Assembly (NCBI RefSeq): GCF_000474945.1
Contig: NZ_KI440838.1
Span: 223,433-287,432 of the forward strand
Direction of reading: 5' to 3'
Length of the DNA: 64,000 bases
Source: Solimonas soli DSM 21787
GTDB lineage: Bacteria > Pseudomonadota > Gammaproteobacteria > Nevskiales > Nevskiaceae
Shown piece after piece: positions 1 to 16,017 of this stretch (within the stretch, counting starts at the first letter, position 1; the number at the start of each line of letters is the position of its first letter). A program made the translations under genes and the position numbers. The notes under the pieces were generated by a model. That model ran no database searches. It was not told where the DNA came from and was given only the letters and a program-made list of their open reading frames with translations.

Positions 1-675
1 CTTGAACAGCGGCGACTCGTTGAGCTGCAGGCGGATGTAGACCGAGATCGCCAGCAGCAGCGCCGAGACGAGGAAGGGAATGCGCCAGCCCCAGGCCTCG
101 AAGGCCTCGGTGCCGAGCGCGAGCCGGCAGCCGAGGATCACCAGCAGCGAGAGGAACAGGCCGCCGGTCGCGGTGGTCTGGATCCAGCTCGTCGCGTAGC
201 CGCGGTTGTCGTCGCGCGAGTGCTCGGCGACGTAGGTCGCGGCGCCGCCGTACTCGCCGCCGAGCGCGAGGCCCTGCAGCAGGCGCAGCGAGATCAGGAT
301 CACCGGCGCGGCGACGCCGATCGAGGCGTAGCTCGGCAGCACGCCGACCAGGAAGGTCGACAGACCCATGATCAGGATGGTGACGAGGAAGGTGTACTTG
401 CGGCCGACCAGATCGCCGAGCCGGCCGAACACCAGCGCGCCGAACGGCCGCACCGCGAAGCCGGCGGCGAAAGCCAGCAGCGCGAAGATGAAGGCGCTGG
501 TGTCGTTGAGGCCGGAGAAGAACTGCCTGGCGATGATCGCCGCCAGCGAGCCGTAGAGGTAGAAGTCGTACCACTCGAAGACGGTGCCGAGCGATGACGC
601 GAAGATCACGCGCCGCGCTTCCGATTTGCCGATCGTGGTCTGCGAGGCACCCAAGGTGCCGGCCGGGCTGCTCAT
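1..675 (-). CDS. MHS-family MFS transporter, C-terminal part outside window
   Basis: Probable proton-coupled uptake permease for a small organic acid in the inner membrane. The reverse strand is open for 225 codons from an ATG at 675 to the window edge, so roughly the second half of a usual 430-residue protein is missing. Visible landmarks of the metabolite:H+ symporter subfamily are FEWYDFYLYG in helix 1, RPFGALVFGRLGDLVGRK (the loop 2-3 signature) and LQGLALGGEYGG. The leader at 676-860 holds a sigma-54-type promoter and an inverted repeat that recur upstream of the porin at 16018, so co-regulation by the response regulator at 11345-12682 is inferred. Substrate is unknown; family assignment is firm. 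Confidence 0.9.
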   Translation of the reverse strand, partial: MSSPAGTLGASQTTIGKSEARRVIFASSLGTVFEWYDFYLYGSLAAIIARQFFSGLNDTSAFIFALLAFAAGFAVRPFGALVFGRLGDLVGRKYTFLVTILIMGLSTFLVGVLPSYASIGVAAPVILISLRLLQGLALGGEYGGAATYVAEHSRDDNRGYATSWIQTTATGGLFLSLLVILGCRLALGTEAFEAWGWRIPFLVSALLLAISVYIRLQLNESPLFK

Positions 676-746
676 ATTGCTGTTCTCCTCGATGTCGTTA
701 TGGCCGTTGCGGATTCCCGCGCGCAGACGGCGTCAGCAGTCTGCAC

Positions 747-762
747 AGCAGGACCGATGCCA
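747..762 (-). promoter_or_regulatory. sigma-54 (-24/-12) promoter of the MHS transporter
   Basis: On the reverse strand the sequence reads TGGCATCGGTCCTGCT, giving the invariant GG-N10-GC spacing of RpoN promoters (consensus TGGCAC-N5-TTGCW). Predicted transcription start is near 736, about 60 bases before the ATG at 675. The match was found by eye. Its weight comes from the companion promoter at 15948-15963 and the shared upstream palindrome. Confidence 0.6.
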
Positions 763-794
763 TGATCGAGAATGAATGAAAACAGGGACTTGAG

Positions 795-841
795 GGTTAC
801 AGCCCGATGACGGCTGTTACGTGACGTAACAGCACGTAACA
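795..841. promoter_or_regulatory. Palindromic enhancer-like site with phased half-sites
   Basis: Positions 814-832 form a perfect 19-base inverted repeat, CTGTTACGT-G-ACGTAACAG. Further half-sites GGTTAC (795-800) and GTAACA (836-841) lie close by. The site is about 85 bases upstream of the predicted sigma-54 start of the MHS gene, where an NtrC-type activator would bind. The half-sites TGTTAC/GTAACA equal those I recall for Pseudomonas CbrB sites, but the spacer here is 5 (or 15 to the outer half-site) instead of 14. Confidence 0.55.
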
Positions 842-928
842 AAACGAAAGCGGCGCGGCTGCCTGGGAGTGCAAGCATGCCGCGCCGCAAGTACCGCAAC
901 TCTCCGGCCGCCCGCACCGGCTGCGGGC

Positions 929-1936
929 TCAGCGCGGGTGCGCGCTGAAGAAGCTCCACATCTCGGCGTTGATGCTGAAATCCTGGCTGGTCTTGCCGAT
1001 CAGCGACTCGGACATGTACTGGCGCCCGCCCGGCCAGGTGTGGCCGCCGTTGTTGACGATGTACTGCCGCACTTCGCCGCCGCTGCCGCAGCCGACATTG
1101 CGCAGCAGGGTCGTCGTCGTGCCGTCGGCGGCGGTGTCGGGCAAGGCCACGCTGCTCGTCGCGCTCGCCGTGCAGTTGTGGCGCGACAGCCAGAACGAGA
1201 AGGCGTCCGGCGCCGACAGCACGCCGACGCGCCCGCCGTTGAACGGCACGATGGGGTCGGCGCTGCCATTGACCAGGATCACCGGCCGCGGCGTGGCCGG
1301 CGCGCAGGCCAGCGACAGGCCCTTGCTGATGGTGCCGGCGACCAGGGCGATCGCCGCGATGCGGTCCGACAGCTCGCAGCCGAGGCGCTCGGCCATGAAC
1401 GCGCCGTCCGACAGGCCGCTGAGATAGAGGCGGTCGGCATCGAGGCCGAGGTAGCCGGTGACGATGTCGATGACCTTGGCGTGGAAGCCGACGTCATCGG
1501 TGCCGTTCGAGTAGCCGGGATCATCGTTCCAGCCGCCGTCCAGCGCTTCCGGCAGGATCGCCCAGTAGCCGTTGGCGACCACGCTCTCGGCGATGACCGT
1601 CAGGTTCGACTGCGCTTCCGGCGTGCCGCCGGTGCCGTGCAGCACGAACACCGCCGGCGCGTTCGCATTGGCCGGCTCCGGCCGCACGACGAGGAAGCGG
1701 CGCGTGGCGCCAGCGTGCGCGAAGCTGATGTCGAAGGCCGCCGAGCCGCGCGGCAGGGTCAGCAGACGACCGTTGATCGTGACGACGGTGTTGGCCGTCA
1801 GCTTGCCGGCCTTCTTGGCGTCGGAGACGGTAAGGTCACCGATGGGGCCGGTGTAAGCACCGACGAAATTGCTGACGGTGGCGGCGAAAGCCGGCGTGGT
1901 GCCAAGCAGGGCGGCGAGCAGTATCAACAGGCGCAT
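929..1936 (-). CDS. Secreted LpqC/PHB-depolymerase-like esterase
   Basis: Predicted exported serine esterase of the COG3509 type (polyhydroxybutyrate depolymerase / feruloyl esterase-like). The 335-residue product begins with a cleavable signal peptide (MRLLILLAALLGTTPAFA). The nucleophile elbow is GLSDG, the acid is the Asp of NGSADPIVPF, and the His is in NNGGHTWPGG, so the catalytic triad looks complete. FVLHGTGG is the oxyanion strand. An ATG two codons upstream (1942) is an equally possible start; GGGAG sits 9 bases before 1936 but only 3 before 1942. It is monocistronic and divergent from the aldo/keto reductase. The natural substrate cannot be told from sequence. Confidence 0.85.
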   Translation of the reverse strand: MRLLILLAALLGTTPAFAATVSNFVGAYTGPIGDLTVSDAKKAGKLTANTVVTINGRLLTLPRGSAAFDISFAHAGATRRFLVVRPEPANANAPAVFVLHGTGGTPEAQSNLTVIAESVVANGYWAILPEALDGGWNDDPGYSNGTDDVGFHAKVIDIVTGYLGLDADRLYLSGLSDGAFMAERLGCELSDRIAAIALVAGTISKGLSLACAPATPRPVILVNGSADPIVPFNGGRVGVLSAPDAFSFWLSRHNCTASATSSVALPDTAADGTTTTLLRNVGCGSGGEVRQYIVNNGGHTWPGGRQYMSESLIGKTSQDFSINAEMWSFFSAHPR

Positions 1937-2073
1937 AGACATTTTCTCCCATGACGCTGTGAGCGTAAGCCGGCCCGGCTCCGCGCGGCGCGCCGTTCGT
2001 CCGCCCCGGACGACGCTTCGGCGTGGTGCGATACTCATGGGCCAACCACGCCGGCGGATCGCGACCGTTCATC

Positions 2074-3024
2074 ATGGAAATGCGCACGCTGGGCCGCTCG
2101 GCCCTCGAGATCGCGCCGCTGGCTTTCGGCGGCAACGTGTTCGGCTGGACCGCCGACGAGAAGACCTCGTTCGCGCTGCTCGACGCCTTCGTCGACGCCG
2201 GCGGCAATCTCGTCGACACCGCCGACAACTACTCGCACTGGGCGCCCGGCAACGCCGGCGGCGAGTCGGAAACGATCATCGGCCGATGGCTCGCGCAGGG
2301 CGGCGCGCGACGTGCGCGCATCGTGCTCGCCAGCAAGCTCGGCAAGCCGATGGGGCCGGGCCTGCAGGGCCTCGCGCCGGACTACGTGCGCAAGGCGGTC
2401 GAGGCGTCGCTGCGGCGCCTGCAGACCGACTGCATCGACCTCTACCAGGCGCACGCCGACGATGCGCACACGCCGCTGGCCGACACGCTCGGCGCCTTCC
2501 AGCGCCTGATCGAGCAGGGCAAGGTGCGTGCGATCGGCGCGTCGAACTACAGCGGCGCGCGCTTCGCCGAGGCTTTGCGCGTGGCGCGCGAACACGGCCT
2601 GCCGCGCTACGAAACGCTGCAGCCCGAGTACAGCCTCTGCGAGCGCACCGCCTACGAGCGCGAATACGAGCCGCTGGTGCTGAAGGAGCAGGTCGGTGTC
2701 ATCCCGTTCTTCGCGCTTGCGAGCGGCTTCCTCACTGGCAAGTACCGCAGCGCCGCCGACTTCGCGGGACGTCCGCGCGCGATGATGCTCGAGCGCTACG
2801 CGACGCCGCGCGGCTGGCGCATCGTCGAGGCGCTGCGCGACATCGCCGCGCGCCTGCGGGCGACGCCGACGCAGGTCGCGCTTGCCTGGCAGCTCGCGCG
2901 TCCGAGCATCAGCGCGCCGATCGCCAGCGCGACGAGCGTCGAGCAGCTACGTGACTTGCTCGGTGCGGCGAGGCTCGCGCTGTCGCCGGACGATCTCGCG
3001 CAACTTGACAAGGCCAGCGCCTGA
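2074..3024 (+). CDS. Aldo/keto reductase
   Basis: NAD(P)H-dependent oxidoreductase with the AKR (beta/alpha)8 barrel, probably soluble. The catalytic tetrad can be read as the Asp and Tyr of DTADNYSHW, the Lys of LASKLGKP and the His of LYQAHADD. GASNYSG and the C-terminal PIASATS segment match the cofactor-binding end. The 316-residue length is typical of the YajO/YghZ-like group. The start at 2074 (MEMRTLGRSALEI) was preferred over an in-frame ATG at 2038 because MxxRxLGxSxLxV is the usual AKR N-terminus; no strong ribosome-binding site precedes either. It shares a short intergenic region with the divergent esterase. Confidence 0.9.
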   Translation: MEMRTLGRSALEIAPLAFGGNVFGWTADEKTSFALLDAFVDAGGNLVDTADNYSHWAPGNAGGESETIIGRWLAQGGARRARIVLASKLGKPMGPGLQGLAPDYVRKAVEASLRRLQTDCIDLYQAHADDAHTPLADTLGAFQRLIEQGKVRAIGASNYSGARFAEALRVAREHGLPRYETLQPEYSLCERTAYEREYEPLVLKEQVGVIPFFALASGFLTGKYRSAADFAGRPRAMMLERYATPRGWRIVEALRDIAARLRATPTQVALAWQLARPSISAPIASATSVEQLRDLLGAARLALSPDDLAQLDKASA

Positions 3025-3066
3025 GCTTCGCTATTGAAGCCGGGCATGTGCGCCGCGCCGCCGCGC

Positions 3067-3492
3067 TCAGAGCGAGCGCCGGATGAAATCGAAGACCTGC
3101 TGCTCGATGGCGGACCAGGCCTGAAACCAGGAGGCCGCGTCGCCCTCGAGCAGCGTGCAGCAGTGGCCGAACTTCAGGCAGCAGCCGGACCCCGCCGGCG
3201 TGACGCGCACGATGCCGGTGTAGTCGGTGATCGGCAGTGCGCCGGTGTCGACGAGTCGATAGCGGTAGTAGAAGTCCTTGGGCACGATCTCCTCGAGCCG
3301 CTCGACGAACGGTGGCCCTTCCGGCAGGTGCACGCGGCGCAGCGCGCCGGGTGCGATCTGCGGGCCGGCCGGGAACTCGGCTCTGGTGAAAAAGCCGCCC
3401 TTCGTCAGTACGGGCATGCCGTCCCAGCTCACGAAGCCCCAGACCTTCTCGGCCGGCGCGTCGAAGCGGGCGGCGATCTCGAAGCTCGCCAT
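3067..3492 (-). CDS. SRPBCC-family (START-like) protein
   Basis: A 141-residue protein with the helix-grip fold pattern: FEIAARFDAPAEKVWGFVSWDGMP at the N-terminus and a closing long helix (WFQAWSAIEQQVFDFI). Such proteins bind hydrophobic ligands or act as cyclases/dehydratases. Two adjacent Cys (GCCLKFGHCCTLL) in the central sheet are unusual. It is the last gene of the Rieske operon, 2 bases after the NTF2-like gene, so it probably handles the substrate or product of the oxygenase. No catalytic residue can be named with certainty. Confidence 0.8.
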   Translation of the reverse strand: MASFEIAARFDAPAEKVWGFVSWDGMPVLTKGGFFTRAEFPAGPQIAPGALRRVHLPEGPPFVERLEEIVPKDFYYRYRLVDTGALPITDYTGIVRVTPAGSGCCLKFGHCCTLLEGDAASWFQAWSAIEQQVFDFIRRSL

Positions 3493-3494
3493 GG

Positions 3495-3896
3495 TCAGAC
3501 CAGCTTGCCGAGCGCGAAGAAATCCGTCTCGACGCGCCAGGTGTCCGCGCAGCGGCGCCAGACGGCGACGTAACGGAATTCCACTTCGTCGCCGCCGGCT
3601 TTTGGCGTCAGGTACGAGTTCGACACCTCGTATGCGAGGTCGCGGTCGGCGCGAATGTAGCGCGGCACTTGGCGGGCCTTGGCGAAGTCCTTGCAGAAGG
3701 CCTCGAACAGGCTCGTCAGCGCGGCGTGCCCGACGACTGTCGGGCCGCTGCCTTCGGAGACGGTCGGCGCGAGCGCGTCGGGGACGTAGTAGTCGCGGAC
3801 GATCGCCGCCGCGTCGCCCGCGGCGAAGTTCTTCTCGAACAGGTCGCTGCGCTCCTTGATGATGCGCCGGATCTCGTCGGGTGCTTCGATGCTCAT
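3495..3896 (-). CDS. NTF2-like (SnoaL/DUF4440-type) protein
   Basis: A 133-residue alpha+beta-cone protein: an N-terminal helix (IRRIIKERSDLFEKNFAAGDAAA), then YVPDALAP and a curved sheet ending WRRCADTWRVETDFFALG. The NTF2 fold is shared by ring-hydroxylating dioxygenase beta subunits, but those are usually longer. It may therefore be either a short beta-subunit-like partner of the Rieske protein or an isomerase/hydrolase of the same pathway. It lies 17 bases after the Rieske gene and 2 bases before the SRPBCC gene, so the three are probably one transcript. Confidence 0.8.
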   Translation of the reverse strand: MSIEAPDEIRRIIKERSDLFEKNFAAGDAAAIVRDYYVPDALAPTVSEGSGPTVVGHAALTSLFEAFCKDFAKARQVPRYIRADRDLAYEVSNSYLTPKAGGDEVEFRYVAVWRRCADTWRVETDFFALGKLV

Positions 3897-3913
3897 GATG
3901 TCGGTCCGGTCTT

Positions 3914-4960
3914 TCAGCGGATGAAGTCGCGCGAGGGATGCGCGCGCGGATAGTTGCGCAGGAAGTCGAAGTAGCGCGCCAGCGCGGTGTCGGCCCTGGT
4001 GAGATAGCCGACCTTGTGGTGGATGCTGTCGAGGATGGGCTTGTCCTCGGCCGCAGTGCGCGCGAGCAGGAACTTGCCGAAGTCGAGTCGCTCGCGCAGT
4101 GTCTTGCCGCCTTCGACGTCGACGTTGCGCACGAGCACGGAGATGAAGACGTAGTGGGTGCCGGGTTTCGGCATCGAGAAGCCGGCGGCGATGCCGAGCC
4201 ACCAGCCGTCGACCGTGCCCTGCTGGAGGAAGGTGCTGCTGCCGTAGATGCCGGCCTCCCAGGCGAGGTCTTCATTGTCCTGGTGGAAGGCGTCGATCTT
4301 CATGCGGAAGCCCCACGGCTCCCATTTGATGCTGTTCATCGGATCGTCGCTCTTGAACTTGAAGCCGTGCACGACGGAGATGTGCTGCGTGTCGGGCGTG
4401 TTGGACGCGAAGATCCACGGATCGCAGGTGTAGAGTTCCGACATGAACGCTTCGGCGACGAGCTGCTCGTCCGGGTACTCGAAGTCGGCGATCTGCCATA
4501 GCGGCTCGTAGCCGTTGAAGACGTAGATGATTCCGAAGCGCTCGGTGACCGGGAAGGTGTAGAGGCAGGCGCCGGGCGGCGGCGGCAGGCCGGCGCCGGT
4601 CTTCACGCACATGCCGTTCTCGTCGTATTCCCAGCGATGGAACGCGCACTGCACGCGGTTGCCGAGCACCTTGCCGACCGAGAGGTCGGCGCCGATATGC
4701 GGGCAATAGGCGCTCTGCACGCGCACCACGCCGTCCTCGCCGCGGTAGATCACCACGCGCCCGTCGAGGAAGTCGCGGCCGATGATGGTGCCGGCGGGCA
4801 CTTCGGTGGACAGCGCGATCGGGAACCACGACTGCGTGAACAGGCCGCCCTCGCCTTCGGCCGGCACGTGCATGCCGGTGAAGCGCCGGCGTTCCGCGAG
4901 CGGGATGGGGTCGCGGCGTGCGACCGGTTCGGTGGGGGCTGCGGGTTTCACGTCATCCAT
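3914..4960 (-). CDS. Rieske [2Fe-2S] oxygenase, catalytic subunit
   Basis: Predicted terminal oxygenase of a non-haem Rieske system that hydroxylates or demethylates an unsaturated or aromatic substrate. The Rieske cluster ligands are Cys86/His88 (YCPHIGADLS) and Cys105/His108 (CAFHRW). The mononuclear iron motif is N-x2-D-x2-H-x4-H, with Asp190 bridging and His193/His198 as ligands (NTPDTQHISVVHGF). The 348-residue length resembles single-chain oxygenases of the KshA/vanillate-demethylase kind. GGAG precedes the ATG. The operon also carries NTF2-like and SRPBCC genes; a ferredoxin that could donate electrons is at 11014. No reductase gene is in the locus. Upstream is the shared element at 5059-5080. 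Confidence 0.92.
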   Translation of the reverse strand: MDDVKPAAPTEPVARRDPIPLAERRRFTGMHVPAEGEGGLFTQSWFPIALSTEVPAGTIIGRDFLDGRVVIYRGEDGVVRVQSAYCPHIGADLSVGKVLGNRVQCAFHRWEYDENGMCVKTGAGLPPPPGACLYTFPVTERFGIIYVFNGYEPLWQIADFEYPDEQLVAEAFMSELYTCDPWIFASNTPDTQHISVVHGFKFKSDDPMNSIKWEPWGFRMKIDAFHQDNEDLAWEAGIYGSSTFLQQGTVDGWWLGIAAGFSMPKPGTHYVFISVLVRNVDVEGGKTLRERLDFGKFLLARTAAEDKPILDSIHHKVGYLTRADTALARYFDFLRNYPRAHPSRDFIR

Positions 4961-5031
4961 GGGGTTCTCCTGTGGCGGTAAGCCGCCCGGGGCGGGAACA
5001 GTCCGGGCTTGTGCGGGTGGATGGTAGGGCC

Positions 5032-5080
5032 GATTGCAGCAGACGCGTTCCGGCTCCGCCCATCCACCAAAAAGGGAGAG
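5032..5080 (-). promoter_or_regulatory. Shared regulon element, copy 1 (Rieske operon promoter)
   Basis: On the reverse strand CTCTCCCTTTTTGGT followed by GGATGGG occupies 5059-5080, and TGCAATC follows 20 bases later (5032-5038) in the place expected for a -10 region. The same 22 bases occur upstream of the TonB receptor at 7458-7479, and the first 15 upstream of the DJ-1 gene at 10211-10225. The TGCAATC to ATG distance (72 bases) is almost the same as in copy 2 (71). Binding by the MalT-like regulator at 7510-10125 is inferred. Confidence 0.55.
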
Positions 5081-5090
5081 CGCGCGGTGC

Positions 5091-7361
5091 TCAGAAGTTG
5101 AAGCCGAGCTCGACGCCGTAGCGGCGCGGACGGCTCGGCAGGCCGAGATCGGAGAGGCCGCCGCTGAATTCGTAGGGTACGAATTCGACGACGTAGCGCT
5201 CGTTGAAGGCGTTGTCGACGAAGCCGGCCAGCGACCAGTGCTCGCCCTTCAGCGTCAGCCGGAAGTTCACGAAGTGCTGCGGCGCGCGCTTGTCCTCGTT
5301 GTCGATCTCCCAGTAGTAGTCGCCGCCCGAGCCATTGATTTCGCCGCGCCCGATCAGCTCGAGCGCGGCGATCGGCTGGTGGTACTCGATGTAGGCGTTG
5401 TACGAGTAGCCGGGCACCTGGTTGAGCTGGTTGCCGTCGAAGTCGCCGCGCGCGACGGTGTTGGCGTAGACGCTCGGATCGTAGGAGTCGATCCGCGAGC
5501 GCAGCAGGCCGAAGCCGGCGCCGATCTGCAGGTGCCGGATCGGCTGCGTCGACAGCTCGAGCTCGAGGCCGGCGACGTGCGATTTGGGGATGGGGTTCGC
5601 GATCAGTTGCGAGACGGTCAGCAGGTCGAGCGTGTAGACCTGCCGGTCCGCGATGTCCATGTAGAAGAAGGAAGCGTTGAAGAAGCTGCGCTTGCCGATC
5701 TGGCTCTTGAATCCGGCCTCGTAGTTCCAGAGCTCTTCCTTCTTGTACTGGCGGCCGACCTTGTCCGTGGGGTTGAAGCCGCCGCTGCGGAAGCCCTTGC
5801 TGACCGTCGCGTACGGCATGAAATGCTGGATGAGGCCGTTGGGCGGCGTGTCGAAGGTATAGCTGAGCGTGAACTGCGGCTGCAGCGAGCGGAACGTCGC
5901 GTCGTTCACGGCGCCGTCGCTGAGCAGGCTCACCTGGTGGCGGTCGTCGATGTCGTAGCGCAGGCCGAGGCTCGCCTGGAATGCCCTACTGATGTCGTAG
6001 TCGAGGTGTCCGAAGGCCGCGTACGAGTGGTTGCTGTCGGCGAAATGCTTGTTGACAAACGGGATCGAGAACGGCAGGCCGAGCGCGTCCGTCAGGTCCT
6101 GCGCGATGTAGGGCTGCGTCAGCGTCTCGCGGTCGACCGAGAGGTAGTAGCCGCCGAGCAGCCAGTGCAGCGCGCCGGAATCGTTCGAGGTGAGGCGCAG
6201 CTCCTGGCTGAACGCCTTGTTGTCGACCGTCTGGATCGCTGTCAGCAGCGGCAGCGGCAGGTAGTCGAGATCCTCGCTCAGATACGAGTCGAGCTTGGAG
6301 TAGGCGCTGACCGAGGACAGCTTCGCGAAGCCCGCGTCGTAGTCGGCGCGCAGCGAGACCTCCTCGATGCGCCGCGTGCCGAGCCCCTTGTGGTCGAGGA
6401 TGACCGGTTTCGGATCGCTGATGTCGCGGTCTTGGCCGAGGCCGCGCAGCAGCGAGTACGGCACGTAGTAGGCGGCACCGGCGCGGATGTCGTCGTAGGT
6501 GCCGGTCAGCGAGAACGTCAGCCGGTCCGTGGGGATGAAGAGCAGGTTGGCGCGCACGCTCTTGGCATGCTCGTCGTCGACCTTTTGGTTGAGCGTCTCG
6601 TCGTTGATGAGGCCGCCGAAGTCGCGGTACTGTCCGGCGATACGGAACAGCAGCACATCGTCCACGATCGGCCCCGACAACTGGGCCGAGACACGCTGAT
6701 CGTCGCCGTTGCCCCAGGTGCCCTTGAGGCGGCCGCTGAAGTCGTTGGTCGGCTGCCGGGTGACGATGTTGATGGCGCCGCCCTCGGCGTTGCGGCCGTA
6801 GATCGAGCCCTGCGGTCCCTTGAGCATCTCGATGCGCTCGACGTCGAACAGCTCCTGCGTGATCTCGTTCGGAATGTTGCTCTGCACGCCGTCGACGACC
6901 ACGGCGATCGGCGCCTCGCCCATGCGGATCTGGCCGATGCCGCGGATGTTGATGAGCACGACGCCAGGCTGCTGGGCCTCGATGAGATTGAAATTCGAGG
7001 TCAGCCGAGTCAGGTCCTTGACCGTGCCGACGCCCGCCTGTTCGAGTGTGTCGCCGGTATAGGCCTGGATCGAGACGGGCACTTCGCTGAGCAGCTCCTC
7101 GCGTTTGCGCGCAGTGACGACGATCGTCTGGACGGCGTCCAGGTCGGCCGCGTCGGCGGCCGGCGTCGCCGGACTGGCCGGCGCCGCGTCAGGAACGGGA
7201 ATGGTTGCGTACGGTGGCGGTATCGCTGTCGTGCCGGCGTCGGCCGGTGGCGTGGCGGCTTCCTGCGCGAACGCGTGGCCGGCGTCGAGCGCGAACAGCA
7301 TCAAGAGCCAATGCGCCGTGCCCCGGCGCATCGCGCGTTGCGGACAACTGGGTGTCCCCAT
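5091..7361 (-). CDS. TonB-dependent outer-membrane receptor
   Basis: Energised outer-membrane uptake channel. The 756-residue product has an N-terminal signal peptide (WLLMLFALDAGHAFA), a proline/alanine-rich stretch, then a TonB-box-like segment (QTIVVTARKR). The plug domain follows (VSIQAYTGDTLEQAGV, NIRGIGQ, VERIEMLKGPQGSIYGRNAEGG), then a long beta-barrel ending in aromatic Phe (VELGFNF). The organisation resembles the receptors common in sphingomonads and Nevskiales for hydrophobic catabolic substrates rather than classical siderophore receptors, but sequence alone does not settle the ligand. The start at 7361 is chosen for GGGG 8 bases upstream and fit to a signal peptide. Single-gene unit between the LuxR-type regulator and the Rieske operon. 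Confidence 0.92.
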   Translation of the reverse strand: MGTPSCPQRAMRRGTAHWLLMLFALDAGHAFAQEAATPPADAGTTAIPPPYATIPVPDAAPASPATPAADAADLDAVQTIVVTARKREELLSEVPVSIQAYTGDTLEQAGVGTVKDLTRLTSNFNLIEAQQPGVVLINIRGIGQIRMGEAPIAVVVDGVQSNIPNEITQELFDVERIEMLKGPQGSIYGRNAEGGAINIVTRQPTNDFSGRLKGTWGNGDDQRVSAQLSGPIVDDVLLFRIAGQYRDFGGLINDETLNQKVDDEHAKSVRANLLFIPTDRLTFSLTGTYDDIRAGAAYYVPYSLLRGLGQDRDISDPKPVILDHKGLGTRRIEEVSLRADYDAGFAKLSSVSAYSKLDSYLSEDLDYLPLPLLTAIQTVDNKAFSQELRLTSNDSGALHWLLGGYYLSVDRETLTQPYIAQDLTDALGLPFSIPFVNKHFADSNHSYAAFGHLDYDISRAFQASLGLRYDIDDRHQVSLLSDGAVNDATFRSLQPQFTLSYTFDTPPNGLIQHFMPYATVSKGFRSGGFNPTDKVGRQYKKEELWNYEAGFKSQIGKRSFFNASFFYMDIADRQVYTLDLLTVSQLIANPIPKSHVAGLELELSTQPIRHLQIGAGFGLLRSRIDSYDPSVYANTVARGDFDGNQLNQVPGYSYNAYIEYHQPIAALELIGRGEINGSGGDYYWEIDNEDKRAPQHFVNFRLTLKGEHWSLAGFVDNAFNERYVVEFVPYEFSGGLSDLGLPSRPRRYGVELGFNF

Positions 7362-7431
7362 GTCGAAATCCCCGTCTGATCGTGAGTGGCGCGGAGATTC
7401 CCGGCCTTGCGAAGGCGCTCTCCGGCAACGG

Positions 7432-7479
7432 GATTGCAACAAAGGGCGGGGACGCTTCCCATCCACCAAAAAGGGAGAG
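7432..7479 (-). promoter_or_regulatory. Shared regulon element, copy 2 (TonB receptor promoter)
   Basis: Reverse-strand CTCTCCCTTTTTGGT plus GGATGGG at 7458-7479, identical over 22 bases to copy 1. TGCAATC lies 19 bases downstream (7432-7438). The element would be centred near -43 if TGCAATC is the -10 region, a position typical for class II activation by MalT/AlkS-type regulators. Confidence 0.55.
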
Positions 7480-7509
7480 AGGTGGCGCACCGGCGCGGCG
7501 CGCGGAGCC

Positions 7510-10125
7510 TCAGAGCAGCCCGAGCTCGCGTGCGCGCGTGATCGCCTGCGAGCGCAGGCCTGCCTTGAGCTTCTCGTAGAGATGCTTGCGGTGCGTCTTG
7601 ATGGTGCCTTCGGCGATCTGCAGCCGCCGCGCCATCTCCTTGCTCGACAGGCCGTCGACGAGGAAGTGCAGGATGTCGAGCTCGCGCTCGGTCAGCAGCA
7701 GGCGTCCGCCGGGCGTCGGCATGCGTCGCGCGGGAGCGTCTGCGCCGGGCGCGGGGCCGGCGAGCGCGCGTGCGCGGCGCAGTACGTCGGCGTCGAAGTT
7801 CATCGGCCGCAGGCGCGCGAGCTCGGCGAGCTCGTCGATCAGGGGCGCGTGCGCGAGGAAGGGGCGCCGCAGGCCGCTGCGCTCGGCCTGCGTCACGGCC
7901 CGCGCGAGATGGCGCGCGGCCTCGCGGTAGCGGCGGCCGCGCATGGCGAGACAGGCCGCGAGCAGCGCGGCTTCGAGATGGATGCCGCCGTCGCGCGGCG
8001 CCGGCTGCAGCGCCTGCAGCGCCGCGAGCGCCTCCGCCGCTGTGTCGAAGCGTGCGCCCGCGAGGGCGAGGCGTGCCGTCTCGAGCCAGGCCGGCGCGAG
8101 GACGCGCACGCCGTCCGGCGTCGCGGGCGGCTGCTGGCGCGCGCGCGCGAGCGCTTCGGCGCAGAGATGGCCGGCGGCCTCGAGATCGCCGTCGGCGCCG
8201 GCGCGCCGTGCGCGATGGAGGCGCACGAGGATGTCGAGGCGCGGCAGGCGTCGGCGCGCGGCGAGATCGGCGAAGCTCTCGAGCACGTGCTCCTCGAGCG
8301 CGCGGTCGCCGCTGGCGCGGCTCAGCGCCGCAGCGGCGTCGAGCGCGCGCGCGTAGGCTTCGAACCACGAGTGCAGGCGGTAGAGGCTCGTGAGGTCGCC
8401 GGCAAGGCACTCGGCGCGTTCGTTCTCGCCGGCGAGGTACGCGGCATGCGCCGCGTCGAGCCGGATCACGCGCCGCTCGTTGCTCGCTTCGCCCAGCACG
8501 TCCCCGGCAAGCGCCGCGGCCCGCTCGTACTCGCCGAGCGCCTCGCCGACGCGGCCGAGCCCGTGCAGCGCCAGTGCGCACTGCCAGCGTCCGTAGAGCT
8601 CGACGTAGGCGCTGTCGAGCGCTTCGGCCTCGAGGATCGCCGCGCGCGCGCTCGGCAGCGTGCGCTCGTACAGTCCGGCGTTGTTGAGGACCGCGCAGGC
8701 GACCGCCGCCGCGCTCGGCGCGAGCAGCGGCGCCTCGCTCGCCGCCGCGTCGCCGGCGCGCTGCTCAAGCTGCGCGAGGCTTTCCTCGGCGAACGGACGG
8801 TCGCGATAGACGTCGACGACGGTGGCGATCACGGCGAGGTCGACGTGCAGGCTCGCGGGCGTCTGGTGCGCGCGCACGGCGTCGAGCGCGCGCTGTGCCT
8901 CGTCGACGCGGCCGGTCTGTGCCTGCCAGTAGATGCGCGCGAGGATCGCGGCCGGGAAGCGCTCCGCGAGGCCCGCGATGTTCGGCGCGCCGCCATCGAG
9001 CGCGCGCAGCCCGTCGTGCCAGATGACGCGCCAGCCGCCGCTGCGCTCGGTGATCTGCGCCGCGAACGAGGGATCGCCGGTGCGGCGCGCGTGCGCGAGC
9101 GCCTGCCGGTAATTCCCGGCGTCGGCGCAGGCTTCGGCGGCGCGCCGCTGTGCGGCCTGATGCAACGCCGGCGCCTGGACGCGCAGGCGGCGCAGCAGGA
9201 AGGCGCGCAGCACGGGATGGAGGACGACGCGGTCGTGGTCCGTCCACCGCGCCGAGACCGGCAGGCCGTCCTCGACGAGGCCGAACAGCCGTGGCAGCGA
9301 AGCCGTCGCATCGAGCGCCTCGAGCATGCCCGGCTCGACGGCATCGAGCACGGCGGCCTGCATCAGCAGGCGCTGGTCGCGCGCCGGAAGCGCCGCCAGC
9401 AGCTCGTGCTCGAAATAGTCGGCGCGATGCTCGGCGAGGCGCGCGACGAGATCGTCGGGCGTCGCGTCGGCGAAGGCCGCGGAGCGCTGGCCGCAGGCGA
9501 GCGGCCAGCCTTCCGTGAGCTCCATCCAGCGCAGCGCGGCGTCGCGGCCGAGTGCCTGCGCGGCGGCGATCTCGTCGACGCCGAAGGCGAGCTCGGCGCT
9601 GCCGTAGCGCTGCACCGGCGCGAACATGGCGATGCGCTCGAGCGGCAGCACGTGCGGATTGCGGCAGGCGAGCACGGCGCGGCCCTGCGTGCAGAATTCG
9701 AGCAGGATCTGGCGCACGAGCGACTTCACCGCGTGTCCCGGCGGCGCGCCATCCATGTCGACGATCAGCGTGCCGAGCCCGCCGGGGCACTGGCTCATGG
9801 CTTCGAGCGCGGTGTCCGCGGCGACGTCGGGATTCAGCGAGGCTGGCATGCCGGCGTGGCCGCAGAGCTCGCAGAATGAGCGCAGTGCCTGCGTGAGGCT
9901 CGTCGCGCTGTGCAGCGTCCAGACGCGCACGCGTTCCGGATTCCGCTCCGACCAGACTTGCGCGAGCTGCCGGGCGAGCCAGGTCTTACCGTAGCCCGCG
10001 GGCGCGGCGAGCACGAGCAGGCCCCTGCCGCCGTCGGGCAGGGCGGCGTCGACCAGTCCCGGACGCGGCAGGAAAGCCTTCGCCTCGGAGCTACGCTGGA
10101 AACTTCGCGCGGCGCGGTTCGACAC
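7510..10125 (-). CDS. LuxR-family LAL (MalT/AlkS-type) transcriptional activator
   Basis: Large ATP-binding LuxR regulator of 871 residues. The N-terminal signal-transduction ATPase starts with a Walker A motif near residue 40 (LAAPAGYGKTWLA), followed by a helical TPR-like sensor region, and a C-terminal LuxR HTH (LTERELDILHFLVDGLSSKE ... TIKTHRKHLYEKLKAG). MalT-type proteins oligomerise with ATP and inducer and activate promoters from sites near -40. The start codon is GTG with GCGAGG five bases ahead. It lies at the centre of three transcription units bearing the shared element and is the obvious candidate to read it. The inducer is unknown; by analogy it should be the substrate or a derivative. 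Confidence 0.9.
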   Translation of the reverse strand: MSNRAARSFQRSSEAKAFLPRPGLVDAALPDGGRGLLVLAAPAGYGKTWLARQLAQVWSERNPERVRVWTLHSATSLTQALRSFCELCGHAGMPASLNPDVAADTALEAMSQCPGGLGTLIVDMDGAPPGHAVKSLVRQILLEFCTQGRAVLACRNPHVLPLERIAMFAPVQRYGSAELAFGVDEIAAAQALGRDAALRWMELTEGWPLACGQRSAAFADATPDDLVARLAEHRADYFEHELLAALPARDQRLLMQAAVLDAVEPGMLEALDATASLPRLFGLVEDGLPVSARWTDHDRVVLHPVLRAFLLRRLRVQAPALHQAAQRRAAEACADAGNYRQALAHARRTGDPSFAAQITERSGGWRVIWHDGLRALDGGAPNIAGLAERFPAAILARIYWQAQTGRVDEAQRALDAVRAHQTPASLHVDLAVIATVVDVYRDRPFAEESLAQLEQRAGDAAASEAPLLAPSAAAVACAVLNNAGLYERTLPSARAAILEAEALDSAYVELYGRWQCALALHGLGRVGEALGEYERAAALAGDVLGEASNERRVIRLDAAHAAYLAGENERAECLAGDLTSLYRLHSWFEAYARALDAAAALSRASGDRALEEHVLESFADLAARRRLPRLDILVRLHRARRAGADGDLEAAGHLCAEALARARQQPPATPDGVRVLAPAWLETARLALAGARFDTAAEALAALQALQPAPRDGGIHLEAALLAACLAMRGRRYREAARHLARAVTQAERSGLRRPFLAHAPLIDELAELARLRPMNFDADVLRRARALAGPAPGADAPARRMPTPGGRLLLTERELDILHFLVDGLSSKEMARRLQIAEGTIKTHRKHLYEKLKAGLRSQAITRARELGLL

Positions 10126-10210
10126 AGTTGCCTCGCTGGCGAAAGATCGCCGTCACAATGCTCGGTCTGCAGAAGCCAGCAAAAGCTGTGCCTCCTTACC
10201 GTACGCCGGC

Positions 10211-10257
10211 CTCTCCCTTTTTGGTAGAGCGCGCCGCGCAGACCGCGTCGCTAGAGT
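10211..10257 (+). promoter_or_regulatory. Shared regulon element, copy 3 (DJ-1/ferredoxin promoter)
   Basis: CTCTCCCTTTTTGGT then AGAG at 10211-10229. CTAGAGT follows 25 bases later (10251-10257) where the -10 region should be. Here the element is a near-dyad (CTCTCCC-TTTTT-GGTAGAG, one mismatch). It points toward the gene at 10299 and lies in the region shared with the divergently read regulator. Confidence 0.5.
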
Positions 10258-10298
10258 GCCGTCACCGCAACGCCGGCGCTCCGCCGCAGGAGGACAAG

Positions 10299-11009
10299 AT
10301 GGCATCGAAGGTTCTGCTGGTCCTGACATCGCAGGCGCATCTCGGCGAAGGCGGCATGGCGGCCGGAAGCTGGCTCGAGGAGCTCGCCGCGCCCTATTGG
10401 GTGCTGCACGACGCGGGCTGCGTGCCCGTGTTCGCCTCGATACGGGGCGGCGCGGCGCCGCTCGATCCGGCGAGCCGCGCGGCGCCGTGGCTCACCGACG
10501 ACGGCCGCCGTCTGCTCGACGACGGCGAGGCGATGGCGCTGCTCGGGGCGACGCCTTCGCTGGCCGCGCTGGACGCCGACGGCTTCGACGCGATCTTCCT
10601 CGTCGGCGGCGCCGCCGTGATGTGGGACTTCCCGCACGACGCGCTGCTCGGCCGCCTGCTGCGCCGCTTCGCCGACAGCGGCCGCGCGTACGGCGGCGTC
10701 TGTCACGGCGTCGCCGGACTGCTCAATCCGCACGCCGGTCCGGATTTCGTCAAAGGCAGGCGGCTCACCTGCATCAGCGACCGCGAGGACGCGCTCGCGG
10801 GATACGACAAGCTCGTGCCGTTCATGCCGGAAGCGCCGCTGCGCGCGGCCGGCGCGATCCTGAGCTTCGCCGCCGAGCCGTTCGGCTCGCACGCCGTGCG
10901 CGACGGCCTGCTCGTGACGGGGCAGAACCCCGCCTCGGCCGGCGCTTGCGGACAGCTGTTGATCGAGGCGCTCGCCACGCGCACGCGCGCTGAGCCGGTC
11001 GGCGCCTGA
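10299..11009 (+). CDS. DJ-1/PfpI-superfamily protein (class I glutamine amidotransferase-like)
   Basis: A 236-residue cytoplasmic protein with the DJ-1/Hsp31-like flavodoxin fold: KVLLVLTSQ at the start, DGFDAIFLVGG before the nucleophile elbow, and the nucleophile Cys135-His136 in YGGVCHGVAGL. Family members are glyoxalase-III-type hydratases, chaperones or amidohydrolases. AGGAGG sits 5 bases before the ATG at 10299. Four bases separate it from the ferredoxin gene, so both are one operon under element copy 3. A repair or ring-opening role in the Rieske pathway is possible but not shown by the sequence. Confidence 0.85.
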   Translation: MASKVLLVLTSQAHLGEGGMAAGSWLEELAAPYWVLHDAGCVPVFASIRGGAAPLDPASRAAPWLTDDGRRLLDDGEAMALLGATPSLAALDADGFDAIFLVGGAAVMWDFPHDALLGRLLRRFADSGRAYGGVCHGVAGLLNPHAGPDFVKGRRLTCISDREDALAGYDKLVPFMPEAPLRAAGAILSFAAEPFGSHAVRDGLLVTGQNPASAGACGQLLIEALATRTRAEPVGA

Positions 11010-11013
11010 GCGC

Positions 11014-11328
11014 ATGCCGCGGATCGTCATCGTCGGCGCCGACGGCGAGGGTCGGGAACACGAGCTGTCCGAAGGCACGCCGCTGATGGAGCCGTTGCGC
11101 GAACTCGGGCTCGTCGACGCGGTCTGCGGCGGCGGCGTCTCCTGCGGCACCTGCGTCGTCAGCATCGACGCGGCGTGGCGGGCGCGCCTGCCCGACGCGC
11201 AGGTCGACGAACTCGCGCTGCTCGACGGTCTCGGCTGCGAGCCCGGAGCGCAGCGGCTGAGCTGCCAGGTGCTGGTCTCGCGCGAGCTCGACGGCATCGT
11301 CGTCCGCGCCGCGTCGCACTGCGGCTGA
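11014..11328 (+). CDS. [2Fe-2S] ferredoxin, adrenodoxin/putidaredoxin type
   Basis: Electron carrier of 104 residues. Cluster ligands are Cys38, Cys44 and Cys47 (C-x5-C-x2-C in VCGGGVSCGTC) and Cys84 (RLSCQ), the vertebrate/adrenodoxin-type spacing. Such ferredoxins feed cytochromes P450 or Rieske oxygenases. As the only electron carrier here, it is the likely donor to the Rieske protein at 3914. No ferredoxin reductase is in the window, so a chromosomally distant one must be used. The gene starts 4 bases after the DJ-1 stop. An extra Cys75 near the fourth ligand is noted. Confidence 0.88.
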   Translation: MPRIVIVGADGEGREHELSEGTPLMEPLRELGLVDAVCGGGVSCGTCVVSIDAAWRARLPDAQVDELALLDGLGCEPGAQRLSCQVLVSRELDGIVVRAASHCG

Positions 11329-11344
11329 GGGTCGGGCGCCGCGC

Positions 11345-12682
<1,338 letters not shown>

Positions 12683-12695
12683 GTGAACGTCTGCC

Positions 12696-15620
12696 TCAGG
12701 TGAGCACGCCGTGCAGCGCGTCGGACGCGACCGGCAGGCGCAGCGTGAAAGTGGTGCCGTGACCGGGCCGGCTGTCGACGCCGATGCTGCCGCCGTGGTC
12801 GGCGACGATGCGGAACACCAGCGGCAGGCCGAGCCCGGTGCCGCGGCCCGGCTCCTTGGTGGTGACGAAGGGCTCGAAGATGCGGTCCTGCAGCTCGGCG
12901 GCGATGCCGGCGCCCCAGTCCTGCACCTCGACCGTCACGCTCGCCGCGCCCTGCGCCGCGCGAATCTCGACGCGCCCGTCCGGCGGCGAGGCGTCGGCGG
13001 CGTTGGCGAGCAGGTTGACGAAGACCTGCGTCAGGCGCGCGCCGTCGCCGTCGACCGACAGCGTCGCCGGCACGGCATTGGCGAAGCGGATGTCGCGGCC
13101 GCTGCGCGACAGGCGCACCAGGCGGATCGCCTCGTCGACCAGAGTCGCCAGGGCGAGGCGGTTGCGCGTGTCGGCCGGCGAGCTGCGCGCGAAGCTGAGC
13201 AGCGACTGCACGATGTCGCTGATGCGTTTCGACTGCTGCAGGATGTCGTCGAGTCCCTGTTCGCGTTCGAGCGGATCGTCCTCGTCGCGCAGGTTCTGCG
13301 CGATGCAGGAAATGCCGGTGAGCGGGTTGCCGATCTCGTGCGCGACGCCGGAGGCCAGCGTGCCGATCGACGCCAGGCGCGCGCTGTGCGCGAGCTCCGC
13401 TTCGAGGCGCTGCTGCTCGGTGAGGTCCTCGACCAGCAGCACGAGACCGCTGGTGTCGCTGCCGGCCTCGCGCACTTCCTCCTTGTGCAGATTGAGCCAG
13501 CGCGTGTGGCCGGCGAGCAGCGCCTGCTGCTTGTAGAGATGCGGCGTGCCGGCTTCGATCAGCTGCGCGAACAGCACCGGCCACGGCGCCGGCAGTTCGG
13601 CGATGCGCGCGCCGAGCACCGCGTCGGCCGGCAGCTGCGTGATCGTCGCCATGCGCTCGTTCCACAGCAGCACTTCGTGTCGCGCGCCGAGCGAGCAGAC
13701 GCCGATCGGCAGGTCCTGCAGGATCTGGCGGTGGAAGCGGCGCAGGTGGTTGAGCTCGGCAGCGAGGCCGCGCAGGCGGTCCTGCGAATGTTCGAGCTCC
13801 TCCTCGACGAGGCGGCGTCGCGGCAGCGCGTCGTCGTCGCTGGCGAGCACCTCGCGCGCCAGCTGCGGGCCGATCAGGCCGGACAGGTTGCGCTGCAGGC
13901 GTTCGAGCACGTAGTGCAGCTGGCGCGGCCGGCGCTCGCGCGCGTCGAGCTTGAGATCGCTGAGCGCGCGCTCGATCTCGGCGTGCGCGGCCTCCTCGCC
14001 GAGCGCGTCGGCCAGACGTCCGCGCAGTTCGCCGACGCCGAGGGTGCGCGGCTGTTCGCTGAGCAGCAGCACGGCATCGAGGCGGCAGGCCTGGTCGGCG
14101 GCCTGCTCCTTGGCGCTCGGCCGCGTCGACAGCGAACCGAGCGCGAACAGCAGGCCGTTGACCGCCAGCGACCAGAAGGTCGCGAACAGCCAGGGATCCT
14201 CGTCGTGCAGCGGCAGCGGCGCGAGCGGCGAAGGCGTGCCGAAGGCGAGCGGCCAGACCAGGATCAGCAGCCACATCGTCATGCCGCCGGACACGCCGGC
14301 GAGAAAGCCGACGCGGTTGGCGCGCGGCCAGACCAGCATCGCCAGCACCGCCGGCAGGAACTGCGTGACGCCGACGAAGGAGATCAGGCCGAGGTGGGCG
14401 AGACCGGCCGTCTGGCGCATGGTCGCGTAGGCGCCGTAGCCGATGAAGATGACGATGCCGATCAGGGCGCGGCGGCCCCACAGCAGGCGACGGTAGAGAT
14501 CGTGCGAGGGCTGCGCGCCGCTGCCGATCCACACCGGCAGGATCAGGTGGTTGAGGCACATCGCGGCGAGCGCGAGGCTCTCGACGATGATCATCGCGCT
14601 GGCCGCGGAGATGCCGCCGATGAAGGTGAGGAACACCAGCCAGCGCTGGCCGGCGTGGCGCGCCAGCGCCAGCGCGTAGTAGTCCGGCGCCACCTGCAGC
14701 TGCGCCGCCTGCCCGGCCCACAGCAGCACCGGCACGGCGAGATTGAGCAGCAGCAGGAACAGCGGGAAGGCCCAGCTCGCGGTGCGCAGGCCGTCGGGAT
14801 TGATGTTCTCGGCGAACAGCATGTGGAACTGCCGCGGCAGCAGGAAGGCCGCCGAGAAGGCGAGCAGCAGCAAGGTCGTCCAGCTGCCCTGGCGCAGCGG
14901 CGTCTGCAGCGCGGCGACGCTCTGCGGGTGCGCGGCGAGCCAGGCGTCGAGCCCGGCCGGACCGCCGAACACGCCGAACAGCGCGACCGCGCTGCAGGCG
15001 GCGAGCGCCAGCAGCTTGATCAGCGATTCGAAGGCGATCGCCACCACCAGGCCTTCGTGCTTCTCGCGCGGCGTGACGTTGCGCGCGCCGAACAGCACCG
15101 CGAACAGCGTCACCGTCGCGCAGAACACCAGCGCCAGCATGCCGGTCGCGGCTTCCTGGGTCAGCACCTGCGCGGAGGTCACCACCGCCTGGATCTGCAG
15201 GGCGATGTACGGCAGCACCGAGGCCAGCATGCAGACCGTGACCAGCATGCCGGTCCACGGGCTTGAGTAGCGGAAGGCGAAGAGATCGGCGAGCGAGGTC
15301 AGCTGGTAGTCGCGCACCAGGCGCAGCAGCGGCTGCAGCAGTACCGGCGCCAGCACGAAAGCGAGCGTGACGCCGACGTAGATGGTCAGGAACAGGTAGC
15401 CCTGCGTGTGCGCGAAGCCGACGCTGCCGTAGAAGCTCCAGGTGGTCGCGTAGACGCCGAGCGACAGCGTGTAGGTCAGCGGATGGCGGATCAGGCGCTG
15501 CGGCAGCGCGCCCCGCTCGGCGGCGTAGGCGACGACGAACAGCACCGCCAGATAGCCGAGCCCGGCGAGCAGCAACTGGCCGAGTTGCGGCTGCCACAGC
15601 GGTGTCGGCAGCGCGCTCAT
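12696..15620 (-). CDS. SLC5/SSS-transporter-fused sensor histidine kinase, CbrA-like
   Basis: A 974-residue membrane sensor. Residues 1 to about 490 are a sodium:solute symporter module of 12-13 membrane helices (YTLSLGVYATTWSFYGSVGF, LASVLPYIALQIQAV, FGARNVTPREKHEGLV). A linker/STAC-like segment and a PAS domain follow (LPIGVCSLGARHEVLLWNERM). The kinase core has His761 in SGVAHEIGNPL, the N box in NLLANAADAS and G boxes DWGAGI and GRGTGLGLPL. The ATG at 15620 overlaps the stop of the upstream small gene (ATGA), which fixes the start and implies translational coupling. A longer reading from 15719 was rejected. The symporter module probably senses or transports the inducing compound. Confidence 0.92.
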   Translation of the reverse strand: MSALPTPLWQPQLGQLLLAGLGYLAVLFVVAYAAERGALPQRLIRHPLTYTLSLGVYATTWSFYGSVGFAHTQGYLFLTIYVGVTLAFVLAPVLLQPLLRLVRDYQLTSLADLFAFRYSSPWTGMLVTVCMLASVLPYIALQIQAVVTSAQVLTQEAATGMLALVFCATVTLFAVLFGARNVTPREKHEGLVVAIAFESLIKLLALAACSAVALFGVFGGPAGLDAWLAAHPQSVAALQTPLRQGSWTTLLLLAFSAAFLLPRQFHMLFAENINPDGLRTASWAFPLFLLLLNLAVPVLLWAGQAAQLQVAPDYYALALARHAGQRWLVFLTFIGGISAASAMIIVESLALAAMCLNHLILPVWIGSGAQPSHDLYRRLLWGRRALIGIVIFIGYGAYATMRQTAGLAHLGLISFVGVTQFLPAVLAMLVWPRANRVGFLAGVSGGMTMWLLILVWPLAFGTPSPLAPLPLHDEDPWLFATFWSLAVNGLLFALGSLSTRPSAKEQAADQACRLDAVLLLSEQPRTLGVGELRGRLADALGEEAAHAEIERALSDLKLDARERRPRQLHYVLERLQRNLSGLIGPQLAREVLASDDDALPRRRLVEEELEHSQDRLRGLAAELNHLRRFHRQILQDLPIGVCSLGARHEVLLWNERMATITQLPADAVLGARIAELPAPWPVLFAQLIEAGTPHLYKQQALLAGHTRWLNLHKEEVREAGSDTSGLVLLVEDLTEQQRLEAELAHSARLASIGTLASGVAHEIGNPLTGISCIAQNLRDEDDPLEREQGLDDILQQSKRISDIVQSLLSFARSSPADTRNRLALATLVDEAIRLVRLSRSGRDIRFANAVPATLSVDGDGARLTQVFVNLLANAADASPPDGRVEIRAAQGAASVTVEVQDWGAGIAAELQDRIFEPFVTTKEPGRGTGLGLPLVFRIVADHGGSIGVDSRPGHGTTFTLRLPVASDALHGVLT

Positions 15621-15820
15621 CGCGGCCGGCGCCCCTGCAGCAGGGCGGTGGCGACGATCACCGCGAACCAGGCCGCGTACAGCCACCACCAGGGCCGGCC
15701 GCCGCCGGTCCACACCCACAGGCCGGGCGGCAGCAGCACGCCGAGCGCGAGCAGGAACAGCACGACGGCGCGGTCATTGCCGCCGCCGCTGCTGGATCCG
15801 CGGTCCGTGTCGCGCTGCAT
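15617..15820 (-). CDS. Small membrane protein preceding the kinase (CbrX-like)
   Basis: A 67-residue protein with two hydrophobic helices (AVVLFLLALGVLLPPGLWVW and WWLYAAWFAVIVATALL) and a charged C-terminus. GGAG lies 6 bases before the ATG. Its TGA overlaps the ATG of the sensor kinase. A small hydrophobic ORF in this place is known upstream of pseudomonad cbrA and in front of many SSS-family transporters, where it couples translation or assists the transporter. The palindrome at 15844-15863 lies about 25 bases upstream of its start, so autoregulation of the system is possible. Confidence 0.8.
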   Translation of the reverse strand: MQRDTDRGSSSGGGNDRAVVLFLLALGVLLPPGLWVWTGGGRPWWWLYAAWFAVIVATALLQGRRPR

Positions 15821-15843
15821 GCGCGTCTCCTCGTTCTCGTGCT

Positions 15844-15863
15844 GCCGTTACGCAGCGTAACAG
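15844..15863. promoter_or_regulatory. Palindromic enhancer-like site between cbrX-like gene and porin
   Basis: CGTTACGCAGCGTAAC and the following AG form an inverted repeat with the core GTTACG-N3-CGTAAC, identical in half-sites and spacing to the site at 814-832. It lies about 95 bases upstream of the -24 box of the porin promoter and just upstream of the small membrane protein gene on the other strand, so it may act in both directions. Confidence 0.55.
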
Positions 15864-15947
15864 TCCGGTTCCGGAAGGTGACAGCGGGATTGCCGCAAGC
15901 CCCGCTGTCTCTGGCGCAAGTGCTTGGCGCGCTTGGCAAAGATGACG

Positions 15948-15963
15948 TGGCACAGCGCTTGCC
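15948..15963 (+). promoter_or_regulatory. sigma-54 (-24/-12) promoter of the porin
   Basis: TGGCACAGCGCTTGCC agrees with the RpoN consensus TGGCAC-N5-TTGCW at all but the last position, with GG at 15949-15950 and GC at 15961-15962. Predicted transcription start is near 15974, leaving a leader of about 44 bases to the ATG at 16018. Confidence 0.75.
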
Positions 15964-16017
15964 CCCGCTGACTCACGCCGGTTCCGTGCCGGTGCCCGAT
16001 AACGATATGGAGGAGTC

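Follow-up and report, generated by a model that had tools for sequence, protein, structure and literature searches.

Why do three promoters around a single regulator gene in Solimonas soli DSM 21787 carry the same short sequence, and which protein would read it? The window analysed here is a stretch of 64,000 nucleotides of this genome, in which the original prediction had placed a MalT/AlkS-like regulator gene among a Rieske operon, a TonB receptor gene and a DJ-1/ferredoxin operon, each preceded by a copy of a 15-base element. Our best explanation, to which we assign a probability of about 0.8, is that a 19-bp dyad containing this element is the operator of a MalT-type (LAL) activator encoded at 7510-10125, which would control the three units as a Rieske-oxygenase regulon. 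The dyad is predicted to be the binding site of this regulator because it stands at three promoters around the regulator gene and at the matching places in a relative. Below, G000 is the S. soli genome (4.19 Mb, 34 contigs), G062 is a relative of another genus, and L027 is the locus of G062 that carries the regulator ortholog. The features of the locus, in window coordinates, are:

3067-3492, minus strand: SRPBCC (Polyketide_cyc2) protein, third gene of unit 1 (searched as 3067-3495); 74% identity to G062
3495-3896, minus strand: SnoaL-like/DUF4440 protein, second gene of unit 1 (searched as 3495-3893); 62% identity to G062
3914-4960, minus strand: Rieske oxygenase, 348 aa, first gene of unit 1 (Rieske match 2.6e-18); 78% identity to G062
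5033-5038, minus strand: -10-like hexamer TGCAAT of an inferred promoter, preceded by TGn; dyad 1 starts 42 nt away
5062-5080, minus strand: predicted operator dyad 1, CTCTCCCTTTTTGGTGGAT, 5' of the Rieske operon
5091-7361, minus strand: TonB-dependent outer-membrane receptor, unit 2; missing from the G062 locus
7433-7438, minus strand: -10-like hexamer TGCAAT of an inferred promoter; 41 nt from the start of dyad 2
7461-7479, minus strand: predicted operator dyad 2, CTCTCCCTTTTTGGTGGAT, the same 19 bp as dyad 1, 5' of the TonB-dependent receptor
7510-10125, minus strand: MalT-type (LAL) regulator, 871 aa, with an N-terminal ATPase domain and a C-terminal GerE/LuxR helix-turn-helix
10211-10229, plus strand: predicted operator dyad 3, CTCTCCCTTTTTGGTAGAG, 5' of the DJ-1/ferredoxin operon
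10252-10257, plus strand: -10-like hexamer TAGAGT, chosen by eye; 41 nt from the start of dyad 3
10299-11009, plus strand: DJ-1/PfpI-family protein, first gene of unit 3; 68% identity to G062
11014-11328, plus strand: [2Fe-2S] ferredoxin (Fer2), second gene of unit 3; L027 and L028, the two loci searched for it, gave no match
11345-12682: NtrC-type response regulator, beside unit 3 with a sensor kinase; named by eye from translations

Searching the window for the 15-base element CTCTCCCTTTTTGGT returned exact copies at 5066-5080 (minus strand), 7465-7479 (minus strand) and 10211-10225 (plus strand), each oriented toward its transcription unit as had been claimed. With up to three mismatches there were four matches in the window, against a mean of 0.32 in 100 shuffles. 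The whole genome also contains exactly three copies, all of them inside the window, and allowing one or two mismatches adds no further copy. With three mismatches the genome holds twenty-one matches and a reversed control pattern twenty, so we treat these as background. The element is therefore not a dispersed REP-type repeat, the outcome that the genome-wide search had been proposed to detect, and its privacy is consistent with the 'self-contained' regulon originally suggested. Coordinates also bear out the reported agreement of copies 1 and 2 over 22 bases (5059-5080 and 7458-7479), with TGCAATC lying 20 nt downstream of the match at copy 1 and 19 nt at copy 2. Three copies alone prove little, since fifteen distinct 15-mers (some overlapping, the element among them) are present at least three times in the window; the other fourteen have, by eye, a higher G+C content. 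What sets the element apart is that it is private to this locus genome-wide, lies at promoters and is conserved.

A 19-bp outline fits the element better than one of 15. The longer form is an imperfect dyad with the consensus TCYCCC-TTTTT-GGYRGA, and its third copy sits between the DJ-1/ferredoxin operon and the divergent regulator gene. Symmetry is partial (8/19 positions in dyads 1 and 2, 12/19 in dyad 3). Allowing any spacer, TCYCCC-N5-GGYRGA has four matches in G000 and three in G062 (reversed control: one in each), of which the dyad sites account for three and two, respectively.

The -10-like hexamers were picked by eye, and the spacing was then measured by script. From the start of the dyad to the hexamer the distance is 41-42 nt at all five promoters, three in G000 and two in G062. 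Each hexamer matches TATAAT at four of six positions; TGCAAT is the identical string at three of the five, while the hexamers of the DJ-1 promoters (TAGAGT, with TAGATT in its place in G062) are less certain. The TGCAAT hexamers are preceded by TGn, a feature of extended -10 promoters. Distances from the dyad start to the ATG are 75, 76, 88, 118 and 120 nt, the last calculated from coordinates 5080 and 4960. The element thus keeps its distance to the hexamer and not to the ATG, which ties it to the promoter rather than the message. If the hexamer starts at -12, the dyad would reach from about -53 to -35 (shifted one base upstream at the Rieske promoter) and centre at about -44 or -45, close to the -43 originally proposed. 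A sigma-70 scan of 4900-10400 found no promoter, with 0.3 expected by chance. We also considered an RNA leader. An Rfam search of window positions 1-18000 at gathering scores matched no family, and on this result and the spacing, fixed to the hexamer rather than to the ATG, the RNA leader was rejected.

Among the fifty-seven other genomes of the family, one, G062, carries an ortholog of the regulator (about 47-48% identity; assembly 90% complete). At E<=1e-25 the regulator was found in four of fifty-eight family genomes, namely its own, G062 and two with distant paralogs at 28-29%, and at E<=1e-60 the Rieske gene was found in two of eighty-five genomes of the order, G000 and G062. When twelve proteins of the window were compared with L027, the Rieske, SnoaL, SRPBCC and DJ-1 proteins (identities as listed above) and the regulator (47%) had counterparts there. 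The TonB receptor, ferredoxin, NtrC-type regulator, aldo/keto reductase, hydrolase and porin-like protein had no match in L027, and the sensor kinase had a partial one (238 residues at 34%). Three of the twelve are regulatory proteins, and the LAL regulator alone is conserved over its length. Across the whole of G062, the best match to the TonB receptor was 31% over part of the protein.

The dyad precedes both the Rieske and the DJ-1 genes of L027, in the same orientation and at the same spacing as in G000, so the single relative found with these genes has also retained the element, in a comparison that the original prediction had called for. Upstream of the Rieske gene the element is CTCCCCCTTTTTGGC (15-mer at 10071-10085, minus strand, 41 nt from TGCAAT), and upstream of the DJ-1 gene it is CTCCCCCTTTTTGGT (dyad at 12806-12824, plus strand, 41 nt from TAGATT). 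Between the two genomes 17/19 dyad positions are kept at each of the two promoters, and the 60 nt just upstream, aligned without gaps, agree at 21 (Rieske) and 15 (DJ-1) positions; both comparisons are anchored on the element. In a gapped global alignment, extra sequence in G062 kept the two elements upstream of the Rieske gene from being paired. As a control, the best ungapped 15-base match between upstream regions was compared with sixty shuffles of each. The Rieske regions reached 15/15 (largest shuffle 12) through their -10 region, TGCTGCAATCGGCCC, which is identical in the two genomes; the element itself reached 13/15. The DJ-1 regions reached 14 and their largest shuffle 13, barely outside the shuffles. 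The strength of the footprint lies in its recurrence at two promoters, with orientation and spacing alike. Two controls were weak, the DJ-1 shuffle margin and the structure search with a single protein described below; neither bears on the genome-wide privacy or the shared spacing, and our probability for the operator is unchanged by them. At arm positions 4 and 16 the DJ-1 dyads have T:A in G000 and C:G in G062. This single event keeps the symmetry, the behaviour expected where two like subunits recognise one site. The privacy, position, orientation and spacing of the dyad, its conservation in one relative and its linkage to the regulator gene are all direct observations. L027 also contains, in the interval from the regulator gene to the Rieske element, a nearly perfect inverted repeat (about 10107-10187; arms of about 32 nt), which by eye has no counterpart in the window sequence.

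Further orthologs and element copies were also sought. Exact matches to CTCYCCCTTTTTGGY occur in two of the eighty-five order genomes, with three copies in G000 and two in G062; these are the same two genomes that carry the Rieske gene at E<=1e-60. One mismatch added thirty-four copies across these genomes, which we regard as background because the reversed control gave forty-seven. Two of these lie near LAL paralogs (L035, position 8235; L037, position 6248), both without the second arm, and one, in contig C53 of G062, is inside a lysine-rich open frame and looks coding. Genome sets for the class and phylum were even draws from larger groups. The Rieske gene was found at E<=1e-60 in its own genome only among 369 class and 398 phylum genomes, and the regulator at E<=1e-40 in its own genome only among the 369 class genomes. 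Searching genome contigs with the regulator gave one locus, matched through the helix-turn-helix only, and searching plasmids gave no match at E 1e-20. The ortholog evidence is thus one locus, that of G062.

A general dyad operator for LAL paralogs was tried as well, using forty-four sources (window positions 1-18000, L027 and the forty-two paralog loci L029, L030 and L035-L074). Between predicted genes, TCNNCC-N5-GGNNGA had nine matches, two of them dyads 1 and 2; the DJ-1 site and the two in L027 escaped the rough gene caller used here. At spacer 5, three control half-sites had eight, one and seven matches, and TCNNCC/GGNNGA at other spacers from 2 to 9 had two to seven. Without enrichment at paralog loci (nine versus eight, one and seven), this candidate was rejected. 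Shared 13-mers between genes in forty-five sources yielded no convincing second case among the matches listed. At one paralog locus (G001, L038, 13693-17870) there are five copies of G+C-rich dyads, CTCCGCC-N5-GGCGGAG or close to it, which resemble a palindromic repeat family.

The regulator itself, described originally as MalT/AlkS-like and lying between the units, is of MalT (LAL) type. It has 871 aa; LAL proteins are roughly 900 aa long and have a middle helical-repeat sensor. Its C-terminus has a GerE match (4.5e-16, residues 811-864), and its N-terminus a weak AAA_22 match (3.7e-5, under the curated cut-off) and a GYGKT motif in the translation; both the N-terminal P-loop ATPase (NOD) and the C-terminal LuxR/GerE helix-turn-helix of LAL/MalT-type regulators are present. 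The NCBIfam MalT model matched at 2.3e-30 with 105 bits against an equivalog cut-off of 537, so the protein is not a MalT equivalog. Searched alone against solved structures it matched twenty-two sequences, through the helix-turn-helix only, and MalT chains were absent among these. An 18-protein LAL profile that includes the regulator and is dominated by paralogs matched MalT chain 8bob (residues 5-417, E 1.2e-97) and the MalT sensor domain 1hz4 (6.1e-16), the latter without a match to the single protein. Regulator-like matches spanning at least 600 query residues were found in at least twenty-five of forty-one genomes. Matches of any length abound in the family, with twenty-two in G015, a count that takes in short ones confined to the helix-turn-helix.

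The two orthologs are identical at 49/67 positions in the helix-turn-helix region and at 364/775 elsewhere. T[IV]KTHRKHLYEKL, which we take to be the recognition helix from its position in LuxR-type proteins, is present in both orthologs and in none of the nineteen paralogs compared. Eleven of these read TVK[WF]HLxN[IL] at the same helix, and the remaining paralogs vary. For L030, L052, L060 and L069 the paralog windows are out of register, so their identity counts are meaningless; the helices are legible and differ.

Three other explanations were weighed against a predicted LAL activator site. The dyad could be the operator of this protein, with the protein acting mainly as a repressor that blocks the -35 region until an inducer is present. 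A protein bound at the dyad, which covers about -53 to -35, could indeed exclude RNA polymerase, but we find repression unlikely: MalT and AlkS, the characterised relatives, activate transcription from sites that lie on or beside -35 (PMC4381067, PMC7567727, PMC8784404), and the lack of a sigma-70 promoter with a -35 in our scan fits activator-dependent promoters, a weak point because only 0.3 was expected by chance. It is marginally less likely that the LAL gene is a bystander and that the dyad is bound by another regulator, either the neighbouring NtrC-type response regulator or a global factor. An NtrC-type regulator and sensor kinase (named by eye) do adjoin unit 3, but L027 keeps the element without an NtrC-type match and with only the short kinase match given above, a global factor should have more than the three sites found, and the dyad has the layout of a MalT operator.

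The third alternative, in which the copies stem from duplication of a promoter fragment, or are a small repeat, and play no part in regulation, draws on the identity of copies 1 and 2 over 22 bases. Against it, there are three copies only, none degenerate, and the flanks are unmatched beyond the element (e.g. 19/60 upstream of copy 1 versus copy 2). The element also stands at the matching promoters of another genus, G062, at equal spacing, and we consider simple duplication very improbable.

For the preferred reading, a LAL activator and its operator, we infer the binding, activation, inducer and transcription starts as follows. An inducer, perhaps the compound that the TonB receptor imports and the Rieske enzyme oxidises, would bind the putative helical sensor of the regulator, and the ATP-bound protein would multimerise. 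Its LuxR-type helix-turn-helix would then contact TCYCCC-N5-GGYRGA, at roughly -53 to -35, and the protein would recruit RNA polymerase to three promoters that have a -10-like hexamer and no discernible -35. Three functions would be induced at the same time: uptake by the TonB receptor, oxidation by the Rieske, SnoaL and SRPBCC proteins, and, through the ferredoxin and DJ-1, electron supply or detoxification. The unit 3 ferredoxin may donate electrons to the unit 1 oxygenase, which would account for their shared control. Weighing against this reading are the single ortholog locus, the TonB and ferredoxin genes missing from it, the partial symmetry of the Rieske and TonB dyads, hexamers chosen by eye, the empty sigma-70 scan, the dyad counts at paralog loci, the narrow DJ-1 shuffle margin and the single-protein structure search. 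The best solved-structure matches of the Rieske protein include SxtDIOX/SxtT, dicamba O-demethylase, 3-ketosteroid hydroxylase and methylxanthine demethylase, which are too distant to name its substrate. From the plasmid neighbours of its homologs (below), our guess is a demethylase or monooxygenase with reactive products. Elsewhere in the window, direct repeats offset by 363 bases (about 23565-24280, e.g. at 23613 and 23976) may be a duplicated domain within one gene, and an inverted repeat at 26617-26661 (about 21 nt per arm, 3-nt loop) is hairpin- or terminator-like.

There is perhaps an even chance that the locus is a sporadic, compact Rieske-oxygenase module with its own regulatory code, made up of a LAL activator, the altered recognition helix T[IV]KTHRKHLYEKL and the matching operator TCYCCC-T5-GGYRGA. 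As the operator was found nowhere else in the two hosts at the stringency tested, regulator and operator would have moved as a pair and diverged jointly from the other LAL proteins of this bacterial family. Large LAL-type proteins are common in this group, and the papers cited here describe operators for MalT and AlkS only. The locus supplies a precise, predicted operator-regulator pair, a natural second version of it in G062 and a defined three-unit regulon, and the inducer would be a route to the substrate of the Rieske enzyme.

We found no description of this Rieske-oxygenase regulatory module among the open-access papers listed by our searches. Two plasmids carry related gene sets. In Sphingomonas paeninsulae (NZ_CP032828.1), a 50% Rieske homolog occurs with a TonB receptor and a LuxR-type gene that differs from our regulator (28% over 442 aligned residues only); its neighbours include a second Rieske gene, two RidA genes and a glyoxalase, with formaldehyde-oxidation genes close by. 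In this plasmid the annotation splits the LuxR-type region (L033, 14367-17137) into two overlapping genes, which may reflect a frameshift or a break in the annotation. In Rhodococcus pyridinivorans (NC_023144.1), a 44% homolog occurs with a VanB-type reductase, RidA and a DJ-1/PfpI gene. The dyad pattern is in neither Rieske locus.

The closer comparisons are with regulators; we found no operator letters in PMC8265627. AlkS of Pseudomonas putida GPo1 recognises inverted repeats, with operators upstream of PalkB and its own PalkS2, and monooxygenase promoters of this kind have repeats as operators, next to the -35 site (PMC8784404). Both systems have a LuxR/MalT-type activator beside an oxygenase gene set and an inverted-repeat operator; AlkS has an operator at its own promoter, PalkS2, whereas none of our three elements points at the regulator gene. 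MalT multimerises and binds MalT boxes cooperatively (PMC4381067). The MalT box of E. coli and Klebsiella has the core GGA(T/G)GA, is described as a repeat of this hexamer and overlaps -35 (PMC7567727). Our sites have the same GGnnGA frame (GGYRGA, or GGGRGA on the other strand) in the -35 region at five of five sites, as positioned from the inferred -10, whereas the MalT box is a core-hexamer repeat and our regulator is not a MalT equivalog.

The nearest precedent is MalT of Actinoplanes sp. SE50/110, with a palindrome, TCATCC-5 nt-GGATGA, that overlaps -35 and has its 3' end 34.4 +/- 1.0 nt from the start site (PMC7567727). There, too, a MalT-type regulator lies inside its own regulated region, and the 6-5-6 layout and GGnnGA frame are those of TCYCCC-5 nt-GGYRGA. 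From the 3' end of our dyads it is 23-24 nt to the -10-like hexamer and about 35-37 nt to the inferred start, near the 34.4 nt of Actinoplanes. The two differ in the middle bases of the half-sites, in the spacer (T5 at five of five sites here), in the genes controlled and in number, with seventeen start sites there and three promoters here. By analogy with this MalT operator layout, the predicted regulator-operator arrangement is of an already known type.
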